Program-made: the position numbers and the translations under genes | Part shown: piece after piece, positions 34,384 to 36,385 of the stretch | How positions within the stretch are numbered: the stretch's first letter is position 1 | How the letters are laid out: each line of letters starts with the position of its first letter | Notes under the pieces: model-generated | Databases searched by the model: none | Seen by the model: the letters and a program-made list of their open reading frames with translations, nothing else | What the model was told of the DNA's origin: nothing | Source of the DNA: Streptomyces sp. NBC_01471 | GTDB taxonomy: Bacteria > Actinomycetota > Actinomycetes > Streptomycetales > Streptomycetaceae | Assembly (NCBI RefSeq): GCF_041438865.1 | Contig: NZ_CP109450.1 | Span: 496,001-560,000 of the forward strand | Length of the DNA stretch: 64,000 nt | Direction of reading: 5' to 3'

Positions 34384-34413
34384 ACGGCCCGCTCCAGATG
34401 CGGAGCGGGCCGT
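34384..34413 (-). terminator. Strong terminator after the 56-residue peptide gene
   Basis: ACGGCCCGCTCC and GGAGCGGGCCGT make a perfect 12-bp stem with a 6-base loop. It lies 20 bases beyond the stop of the small gene at 34433-34603 and upstream of the fucosidase gene, isolating the small gene. Confidence 0.75.
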
Positions 34414-34432
34414 CAGGGCGTGCGTGCAGCGG

Positions 34433-34603
34433 TCAGTCGATCCCCTGCAGGATGTGGGGCTCGGCGAGGTCGTCCTCGTAGCCGGCCAGCCGGATCGGGG
34501 CCGACCTGGCCCAGACGTCGAGATTGAGGAGCTTCTCGGGCCGGACAGTCCCGGTACGTTCCGCCGGGCGCTGCTCGCGCTTCGTGATGGTCTCTGATGT
34601 CAC
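34433..34603 (-). CDS. Orphan 56-residue peptide, possible precursor or regulatory peptide
   Basis: GTG at 34603 is preceded by AAAGGAG with a 6-base gap, one of the best ribosome binding sites in the window. The peptide has a polar N-terminal half (residues 2-20, rich in Thr, Glu, Arg) that looks like a leader, then LLNLDVWARSAPIRLAG and an acidic tail YEDDLAEPHILQGID. There is no signal peptide, membrane helix, cysteine or zinc motif. A 12-bp terminator follows, so it is expressed alone. The leader-plus-core look and an NLDV motif recall peptide natural-product precursors, but no modifying enzyme of a known class lies beside it. I do not recognise the family. Confidence 0.6.
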   Translation of the reverse strand: MTSETITKREQRPAERTGTVRPEKLLNLDVWARSAPIRLAGYEDDLAEPHILQGID

Positions 34604-34930
34604 CGCGCACTCCTTTGTGTCGCGTAACCGCATGGACAGGGGCAGTTCGGACGCGGTGGCGCCGGTTTCCTGGCGGGACCGCGGCCGTGGTGCGTGCCTG
34701 TCCCAGGACGGGACGAGAGATTTGGTGGGACCTCATCGACTGTCCGTCTGCATCAGAGTAACCAAATGAGCGGGGTTCCGCTCGATAGGGGCCCCAGTCC
34801 GATGGCCAAGTTTTCTTTGCCTTCTGTTCAGAAGGCCTTCCATCCGGCCATGATCCGCTCGAATCCGCCCGACGGCACTCCGGGGAAGGACAGACCGGTG
34901 GCGTCGGCCGACGGATCGGAGCCCGCGCCC
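34604..34930. other. Upstream region of the small peptide gene
   Basis: 327 bases between the SDR gene stop and the peptide gene start, both minus strand. It is less GC-rich than its surroundings and has no coding character. It holds an inverted repeat ATTTGGT (34720-34726) and ACCAAAT (34761-34767) 34 bases apart, which could be an operator for the peptide gene. A short symmetric TTCTGTTCAGAAGG lies near 34820-34835 and could end the SDR transcript or be part of a promoter. Confidence 0.5.
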
Positions 34931-36385
34931 CTACCAGTTCGCGGGGGCGTAGTCCTTGAGGAAGACGCTGTGCAGGTCCTCGCCCGCCTCGCCGCGCACG
35001 ATGGGGTCGTAGACCCGGGCCGCGCCGTCGATCAGATCCAGCGGGGCATGGAAGCCCTCGTCCGCGAGGCGCATCTTGTCGGGGTGCGGGCGCTCGTCGG
35101 TGATCCAGCCGGTGTCCACCGCGGTCATCAGAATGCCGTCCGACTCGAACATCTCCTGGCCGCTGGTGCGGGTCAGCATGTTCAGCGCGGCCTTGGCCAT
35201 GTTGGTGTGCGGATGGCCGGCGCCCTTGTAGCCGCGGCTGAAGATGCCCTCCATCGCGGACACGTTCACCACATAGGTGCGGCCGGCCGCCGCTGCCGCC
35301 ATGGCCGGGCGCAGCCGGCTGATCAGGATGAACGGCGCGGTGGAGTTGCAGAGCTGGACTTCGAGCAGCTCGACCGCGTCGACCTCCTCGACGGTCTGGA
35401 CCCACGTGTTGGTGTCGTGCAGGTCCGGCACGAGTCCGCCCGCGTCGATCGCGGTACCGGCCTCGATCCGGGCTGGCGACGCGGAGCCGGTGACCAGCGC
35501 GAGCTCGGCCACGTCCTGGGCGCTCAGCCCACCGGGCCTGGCGCTGGGCAGCGAGACCTGCGCCCCGCTGCCGAAGGCGCCGATGACCTGCGACGAGGGC
35601 AGCTCACCCGCGGGCAGGGGCGCGGTCTCGGCGGCGATCAGTTCGCTGTACGCCTGCGGGGAGCGGCGCACGGTCTGCGCGGCGTTGTTGATCAGGATGT
35701 CGAGCGGTCCCTCGGCGGCGACCGAGTCGGCGAGTGCGACGACCTGGGCGGGGTCGCGCAGGTCGATCCCGACGACCTTCAGACGGTGGATCCACTCGTC
35801 GCTGTCGGGCATCGCCTTGAAGCGGCGGACCGCGTCCTTCGGGAAGCGGGTGGTGATGGTGGTGTGGGCGCCGTCGCGCAGCAGCCGCAGCGCGATGTAC
35901 ATGCCGATCTTGGCCCGGCCCCCGGTGAGCAGGGCCCGCTTGCCGGTCAGATCGGTGCGTGCGTCGCGGCGCGAGCGGTTCTCCGCAGCGCAGTCACGGC
36001 AGAGCTGGTGGTAGAAGACGTCGACCTCGACGTACCGGGTCTTGCAGATGTAGCAGGACCGGGGGCGCTGGAGTATGCCCGCGATCTCCCCGACGGCGCT
36101 CGACGACGGCAGCACCCCCTGCGTCTCGTCGTCGATGCGCTCGGCGGAGCCGGTCGCGGTGGCTTCGGTGACGGCCTTGTCGTGGGCGGTCTTCGCGGCG
36201 CGGCGCTCCTGCCTGCGGCGCTGCTTCACGGTGCGGTAGACACCGGCGGTGGCACGGCGCACCGCGATGGCGTCCGGATGATCGACGTCGATCTTGTCCA
36301 GCTCGTCGAGCACGCTGAGGCAGAGGGCAAGCCGCTCCGGATCGATGCCGGGGCCGAATGCCTGGCTGTCCTCTGTCACCGTCAT
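34931..36385 (-). CDS. Atypical SDR-family protein with N-terminal zinc ribbon
   Basis: 484 residues. Residues 1-105 are helical and basic in the middle (VKQRRRQERRAAKTAHDKA). A likely zinc site follows: C111-x2-C114 and C129-x2-C132. From about 145 a short-chain dehydrogenase fold begins with ALLTGGRAKIGMYIALRLL (glycine-rich NAD(P) loop) and DILINNAAQT. Between NNAAQ and NVSAMEG there is an insertion of about 70 residues. The catalytic YxxxK is not seen: HTNMAKAALNML has the lysine but threonine at the tyrosine position. It may therefore not be a normal oxidoreductase. GAGGAAC precedes the ATG. Its divergent neighbour is a small secreted protein. Confidence 0.85.
   Translation of the reverse strand: MTVTEDSQAFGPGIDPERLALCLSVLDELDKIDVDHPDAIAVRRATAGVYRTVKQRRRQERRAAKTAHDKAVTEATATGSAERIDDETQGVLPSSSAVGEIAGILQRPRSCYICKTRYVEVDVFYHQLCRDCAAENRSRRDARTDLTGKRALLTGGRAKIGMYIALRLLRDGAHTTITTRFPKDAVRRFKAMPDSDEWIHRLKVVGIDLRDPAQVVALADSVAAEGPLDILINNAAQTVRRSPQAYSELIAAETAPLPAGELPSSQVIGAFGSGAQVSLPSARPGGLSAQDVAELALVTGSASPARIEAGTAIDAGGLVPDLHDTNTWVQTVEEVDAVELLEVQLCNSTAPFILISRLRPAMAAAAAGRTYVVNVSAMEGIFSRGYKGAGHPHTNMAKAALNMLTRTSGQEMFESDGILMTAVDTGWITDERPHPDKMRLADEGFHAPLDLIDGAARVYDPIVRGEAGEDLHSVFLKDYAPANW

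Follow-up and report, generated by a model that had tools for sequence, protein, structure and literature searches.

The small open reading frame at 34433-34603 on the reverse strand of the window (the whole 64,000-nucleotide stretch of Streptomyces sp. NBC_01471 DNA analysed here) is the near-universal Streptomyces member of an undescribed protein family that has so far been seen only in Streptomycetaceae. That it is a real gene, and that the family is a real one, is very likely. None of the libraries searched contains a family model for the encoded protein, which has relatives inside polyketide and other biosynthetic operons. The reading that we favour, with somewhat less than even confidence, is that it serves specialised metabolism as an accessory protein and docks, through its free C-terminal tail, to one common, putative partner.

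The features of the locus, in window positions, are as follows.

34384-34413, reverse strand: hairpin resembling an intrinsic terminator, with a perfect 12-bp stem, a 6-nt loop and no T-run
34433-34603, reverse strand: coding sequence of the 56-aa peptide, stop included, with a GTG start; the conserved tail is codons 27-56
34610-34616, reverse strand: Shine-Dalgarno sequence AAAGGAG, 6 nt before the GTG, in the conserved context ACGCGACACAAAGGAGTGCGCG
34604-34748, reverse strand: probable 5' leader of the transcript, its predicted start placed from the -10-like block
34648-34663, reverse strand: conserved leader element GGCGCCACCGCGTCCG, which contains the 12-mer GGCGCCACCGCG at 34652-34663
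34755-34760, reverse strand: -10-like TACTCT within the conserved block GCTCATTTGGTTAnnCT; the block pattern occurs in 117 of 159 leaders
34768-34783, no strand assigned: inverted repeat GAGCGG/CCGCTC upstream of the -10-like block, present in part of the relatives
34931-36385, reverse strand: SDR-type protein of 484 aa with an N-terminal extension of about 140 aa, linked by synteny

Direct reading of the sequence places the GTG start codon at 34601-34603 and the TGA stop at 34433-34435 on the reverse strand, with the 6-nt spacer TGCGCG between AAAGGAG and GTG; this bears out an earlier note on this DNA, which had described 56 codons behind an AAAGGAG six bases upstream of a GTG. The perfect 12-bp terminator hairpin of that note is likewise there, 19 nt beyond the stop; its arms are ACGGCCCGCTCC and GGAGCGGGCCGT (34384-34395 and 34402-34413) and its predicted fold has an energy of -29.6 kcal/mol. 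A downstream hairpin below -20 kcal/mol is found in 115 of 171 relatives, versus 21 of 171 after one base shuffle each. In appearance the gene is the isolated transcription unit for which it had been taken at first reading. The ribosome-binding context ACGCGACAC-AAGGAG-TGCGCG-GTG is kept among relatives: positions -4 to -1 before the start are CGCG in 142 of 159 and the start codon is GTG in 156 of 159, where start codons were picked to maximise the RBS score. A mechanical ORF call gives 66 aa from an upstream ATG; this longer frame was rejected, the conserved start being the RBS-GTG. Four records of a plasmid collection match the peptide, two of them annotating a hypothetical protein and two carrying no gene at that place.

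We searched for the peptide at several taxonomic depths. A single-sequence search at E 0.01 or better finds homologues in 176 of 199 Streptomyces genomes, that of the window included, and in a sample of the order the peptide is present in 157 of 197 genomes, all within the window's genus. With a small profile, 68 of the 150 genomes in a family sample match; two of these matches, in genus g3 (E 0.005), are probably due to chance, and without them the peptide spans three genera. A tail profile run against 396 genomes of the phylum matches 25, of which 11 belong to the window's genus and the other 14 have E values of 0.001-0.02 and alignments that stop at profile position 28 of 31 or earlier; the convincing matches are confined to the window's genus. 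Taken together, the phylum and family samples suggest that the tail family is restricted to Streptomycetaceae at this search sensitivity. Encoding stretches were confirmed in at least 531 cases in named genomes, and the best 80 of these were kept as close relatives. The earlier note had placed the peptide in no known family, and this holds for Pfam, NCBIfam and PDB, where a profile search of the PDB gave a best E of 0.28, which is at chance level. Among open-licence PubMed Central papers, none was found with tail strings such as SAPIRLAGYE or HIVRGID, or with a description of the family.

Selection distinguishes the two halves of the protein. Over the last 30 codons the mean pN is 0.106 and the mean pS 0.401, a ratio of 0.26 (3000 random pairs from 167 sequences, 4 of the 171 peptides having been omitted for length or insertions), versus 0.84 for the N-half (pN 0.395, pS 0.470; 915 equal-length pairs). 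The C-terminal half is thus the conserved part, as the earlier note had anticipated, and the grounds on which that note would have given up the gene, a lack of homologues or of synonymous bias, are contradicted by its presence in 176/199 genomes and by the ratio in the tail. Six different codons are used for the conserved Arg at position -19 and four for the Gly at -16, so that selection acts on the protein. The C-terminus is fixed: of 289 tblastn matches within the loci retrieved, 288 have a stop codon exactly after the query's last residue D, in a test that imposed no ending rule and in which overlapping loci are counted more than once. A separate count of 171/171 is not independent because those ORFs were selected by their ending, with a pattern requiring [IVL][DE]-stop. 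The window family shares the conserved tail ending in [IV]D-stop and the ribosome-binding site AAGGAGTGCGCG-GTG.

The tail reaches beyond this group. Paralogues came to light through weak second matches, and the tail alone is common to them: L-A-G, an acidic stretch and [ED]PHI[VLCF]RG[IV]D-COOH, with variants, behind N-halves that differ widely. A profile of six divergent members was run on 75 Streptomyces genomes, mostly chosen for having given more than one match earlier, and we fetched the 38 second copies whose match extended to the profile end. In 37 of the 38 a stop follows directly after the tail's D, to which the profile is blind, and the RBS score is 5 or more in 34 of 37 (start chosen to maximise the score). 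The most divergent copies are tied to the window family via the tail profile alone, at E up to 0.015. One match at E 1e-4 (G259:C12) was not a tail on inspection, and such E-values therefore need the stop-codon check; locus L336 failed it and was dropped, so that counts are out of 45 loci, except in the neighbourhood listing and the radical-SAM screen, whose denominators of 46 still include it. Judged by these sequences, the LAG-acidic-EPHI[VLC]RGID-COOH tail defines a larger, unnamed family. In the locus L256 (G400:C1) the peptide lies at 8657466-8657639.

The surroundings of the extra copies are biosynthetic in a majority of cases. At least one of 11 biosynthetic markers was detected by tblastn in 29 of 45 extra-copy loci, in none of 80 ordinary loci and in 1 of 15 other single-copy loci; the most frequent were KSa (14 loci), ACC beta (12), KSIII, TcmI-type cyclase and ACP (8 each), and a type II-like ketosynthase is present in 14/45 extra-copy loci versus 0/95. 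The corresponding Fisher p of 2e-17 is not to be taken literally, because the markers were drawn from the extra-copy loci themselves, because the search covered the whole length of these loci (13.7 kb on average, 20 kb at most) while ordinary loci were cut to +/-7 kb, some being shorter at contig ends, and because the loci come from related genomes and are not independent; the ketosynthase contrast is plain even so. In 16 of the 45 all 11 markers are absent, and some neighbours look ordinary (an aldehyde-dehydrogenase family member in L313, DNA polymerase III alpha in L325). Since ordinary neighbourhoods are also without the 11 markers, the window copy is tied to specialised metabolism by family only.

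Among the clear homologues, an AMP-binding enzyme immediately precedes two copies (L202 and L257, E about 1e-18), with PF00501 found on the L257 enzyme, and a third copy (L214, E 1.7e-20) comes after genes for a carboxyl transferase (PF01039) and for ACC epsilon (PF13822). The divergent copies neighbour ketosynthase, ACP, TcmI-type cyclase, ABM monooxygenase, SARP (BTAD) and PPTase genes, as well as NRPS condensation, ACC, KSIII, class-II DAHP synthase, SAH hydrolase, metF and metK genes; Pfam confirms representative neighbours. Two plasmid operons, annotated independently, are in agreement with this. In the operon of L369, the peptide is accompanied by genes for an alpha/beta hydrolase, an ATP-binding protein, ACC beta, ACC epsilon and pyruvate dehydrogenase, and L370 has metK, the peptide (labelled 'surface protein') and DUF6059 in a cluster that also holds SARP, aromatase/cyclase, condensation and mevalonate genes. 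The DUF6059 gene, at 12270-12548 of L370, stands directly after the peptide on a linear plasmid. A table in a report on streptoketide and coprisidin type II PKS clusters (PMC10100984) gives small hypothetical proteins and, in a coprisidin cluster, DUF6059 beside NmrA, ACP, CLF and KS genes; the likeness to L370 is one of gene listing, and a tail protein may be among the hypothetical ones. An alpha/beta hydrolase family gene adjoins the tail peptide, mostly directly after it, in L261, L310, L315, L318, L321, L328, L335 and L338 (10/45 loci by tblastn), and also follows it in L369. In L316 (G046:C1, near 1019532) no stop codon separates the tail peptide from a PPTase-like ORF that precedes it in the same frame; these are probably two genes, because the same-frame ORF of the related L317 is not PPTase-like.

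Most of the extra copies stand in runs of co-directional genes. The spacing within these runs bears on one alternative, that the product is a leader or ribosome-arrest peptide whose C-terminal residues stall the ribosome and so regulate a downstream gene or their own mRNA. The last residues are strictly conserved up to the stop codon, the next gene begins 5-36 nt later in several operons (L310, L316, L317, L321, L261 and L328), and a co-directional ORF starts within 250 nt after the peptide in 21 of 45 extra-copy loci. Against this, the peptide is often not the first ORF, because in 29 of the 45 a co-directional ORF ends 90-500 nt before its stop, and the terminator behind the window copy leaves nothing downstream to control. 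We regard arrest as very improbable.

Another alternative is a RiPP-type precursor, in which the tail would be a conserved core, or a follower, and the genes for the enzymes that modify it would lie elsewhere in the genome. The fixed C-terminus and small size would fit such a precursor, as would the location of copies in biosynthetic clusters and the W, S/C, R and Y positions of the tail, which are well kept in the window group. However, a conserved tail behind a variable N-half is the reverse of the usual leader and core, and W-x-R-[SC]-A-P is missing from the copies in polyketide clusters. No radical-SAM-like ORF (CxxxCxxC, more than 200 aa) was detected in 80 ordinary and 46 extra-copy neighbourhoods by a rough regular expression on GC-frame ORFs, which covers one maturase type, and the peptides scanned match no RiPP-type model of Pfam or NCBIfam. 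A precursor role is, on this evidence, unlikely, though with distant enzymes it is the chief rival of the reading that we favour. FxSxx-COOH and similar peptides with a fixed C-terminus travel with a radical SAM enzyme. They resemble the tail peptides in being short, with a variable N-half and a motif at the very C-terminus; the motif is unrelated, and by the same rough expression no radical SAM gene was detected near the tail peptides.

We return to the reading of an accessory protein with a docking tail. An AlphaFold2 model of the peptide (mean pLDDT 57.8) has one short helix, at residues 26-33, and suggests that the peptide is mostly disordered; the suggestion goes no further because the underlying alignment is shallow (21 rows). 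The combination of a variable N-half with a tail that is strictly conserved and ends in a fixed, free C-terminus suggests a linear motif for a partner that depends on the terminal carboxylate. The gene would accordingly make a small, probably disordered cytosolic protein in which the N-terminal half acts as a poorly constrained spacer and the function resides in the last 30 or so residues (VWARSAPIRLAGYEDDLAEPHIL-x-G/S-I/V-D-COOH). From the recurrence of this tail in unrelated operons we infer one common, genome-encoded partner, into which the free C-terminus most likely docks; the protein would then act in specialised and acyl-CoA metabolism, as an accessory factor or an adaptor. Many biosynthetic operons, of the type II PKS, acyl-CoA carboxylase, NRPS and AMP-ligase kinds, have copies of their own, and the window copy, which is near-universal and stands alone with a promoter-like block, a long leader and a terminator to itself, would be the housekeeping member. 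A broader version of this picture is possible but rather doubtful: Streptomyces and their close relatives would possess one tail-recognising machine, into which the tail proteins of many unrelated biosynthetic operons plug, with the stand-alone copy present nearly everywhere under a structured leader. If this broader version is true, these proteins would be a new class of small adaptors or tags linking specialised metabolism to a common host factor. If the cluster copies matter for production, they would be a missing part when clusters are moved to other hosts, and the conserved tail would be a ready handle for fishing out the common partner.

MbtH-like proteins are small accessory proteins of NRPS clusters and are folded, with a conserved core. 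Like them, the tail peptides are small accessory proteins in biosynthetic operons, are present in several copies in some genomes and have no catalytic look. In contrast, the tail family is predicted to be mostly disordered and is conserved in its C-terminal tail alone, and around its members NRPS markers are less frequent than those of type II PKS and ACC. An MbtH-like protein is the closest functional analogue that can be named, and by Pfam the tail family is not MbtH. The Pfam models for MbtH, PF13822 and Pup gave no match to the peptides at E up to 10, where HMMER filters drop most matches above E 0.1. The ACC epsilon subunit (PF13822) is also a small protein encoded near ACC beta, and the string H[IV]VRG occurs both in the epsilon of L214 and in many tails; the peptides do not match PF13822, however, and both L214 and L261 have, between ACC beta and the peptide, an epsilon gene in its own right that PF13822 confirms.

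The C-terminus of Pup is GG[EQ]. A Pup-like conjugation tag, ligated to target proteins through its C-terminal carboxylate, would likewise be small and probably disordered, with a conserved C-terminus and an invariant acidic last residue. The peptide tails end in GID or SVD instead, no Pup model of Pfam matches them, and many sequence-diverse copies are unlike one universal modifier; we find the idea scarcely probable. A further Streptomyces small ORF for comparison, by description, is TrpM: inactivation of this 64-codon ORF of S. coelicolor is reported to impair antibiotic production, and its product to interact with the putative aminopeptidase PepA (PMC7042404). TrpM differs in being located in the trp locus.

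Upstream of the coding sequence we examined the probable leader and the promoter-like block. The leader length deduced from the -10-like block is 150-210 nt for most relatives, with some clades at about 110 nt; 12 of 171 sequences without GCGCCACC were omitted from the leader statistics and 159 used. Positions 34604-34760 fold better than each of 200 shuffles (z -3.0). The 12-mer GGCGCCACCGCG lies within 260 nt upstream of the peptide in 124 of 137 distinct loci. The 16-mer GGCGCCACCGCGTCCG occurs once in the window's genome, so the leader element is gene-specific; a reversed control equally gave one match, and the 12-mer was set aside as the operator of a regulon. It may be an RNA element or a DNA site, and a regulatory role of the leader may be supposed; this gene-specific leader with a nearly invariant 12-mer poses a second testable question. 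The earlier note had singled out an inverted repeat, ATTTGGT/ACCAAAT, which is present (34720-34726 and 34761-34767) but is not the conserved repeat; as an operator it was discarded, one arm lying within the conserved block GCTCATTTGGTTAnnCT and the other being variable. A known riboswitch was also considered and rejected: none reaches its Rfam 15 gathering score, and the best match below threshold, Guanidine-II with 23 of 32 bits, falls at 34414-34481, which is the 3' coding end and not the leader.

Two possible pairings involve the 12-mer or the sequence after it. Within the 12-mer, CACCGCG is the complement of CGCGGUG at the start codon, and the 12-mer may sequester the start, an attractive but weakly predicted arrangement: the mean predicted probability of this pairing is 0.17 over 62 leaders, and the variants CGCC, CGCT, CTCG and CACC are uncompensated. 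A candidate hairpin after the 12-mer, CG[N]CCG/[CU]GG[N']CG, was scored by the presence of the hexamer 25-75 nt further on, with 42 of 159 leaders omitted as being outside 98-128 nt and kinship ignored in the counts. Of the 60 leaders in class A, 39 have T as the partner and 17 have G; of the 40 in class T, 31 have A or G and 2 have T; and of the 6 in class C, 5 have G. Other hexamers occur in 11 of the 117 leaders counted. This covariation is suggestive. RNAalifold, run on 81 aligned leaders, returned no such helix after the 12-mer.

The neighbouring SDR-type protein had been named in the earlier note as a possible partner, and it is the basis of the last alternative, that the peptide is a dedicated subunit or regulator of this enzyme. 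Among the best 80 of at least 531 relatives, the SDR is upstream on the same strand in 77, at a distance of 0.2 to 4.2 kb and also with other genes between the two, and two of the three misses have only 2.2 and 0.4 kb of upstream sequence. Across 199 Streptomyces genomes, 169 have both genes, 7 the peptide only, 7 the SDR only and 16 neither (Fisher p about 3e-13, kinship ignored; three genomes per list deduced from numbering). Two of the 176 SDR matches (G042 and G053, E about 1e-127 and 1e-136) are to a distant copy, and the table then becomes 168/8/6/17. Seven Streptomyces genomes thus have the peptide without the SDR even at E 1e-40. In six divergent Streptomyces the two genes are far apart or on different contigs. 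Two other genera have the SDR in 36/36 peptide-bearing genomes, and it is absent from the 9/9 fetched 20-kb peptide neighbourhoods of these genera, which are among twenty 20-kb neighbourhoods of unlinked or extra copies that all lack it. In the family sample the SDR is found in 135 of 150 genomes (5 by the distant copy alone) versus 68 of 150 for the peptide, and the promoter-like block lies between the two genes. Neither co-occurrence nor linkage is constant, and we rejected the SDR as an obligatory partner; a subunit or regulator role is decidedly unlikely. The linkage itself is real but lineage-bound, and we read it as synteny, behind which there may be a functional link. A PDB search at E 1e-5 gave no match over the N-terminal part of the SDR. 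The unusual N-terminal extension carries CxxC-type pairs (CYICKTRY...CRDCAAEN), and the SDR match is interrupted. A second SDR copy near 50% identity is frequent among Streptomycetaceae genomes.
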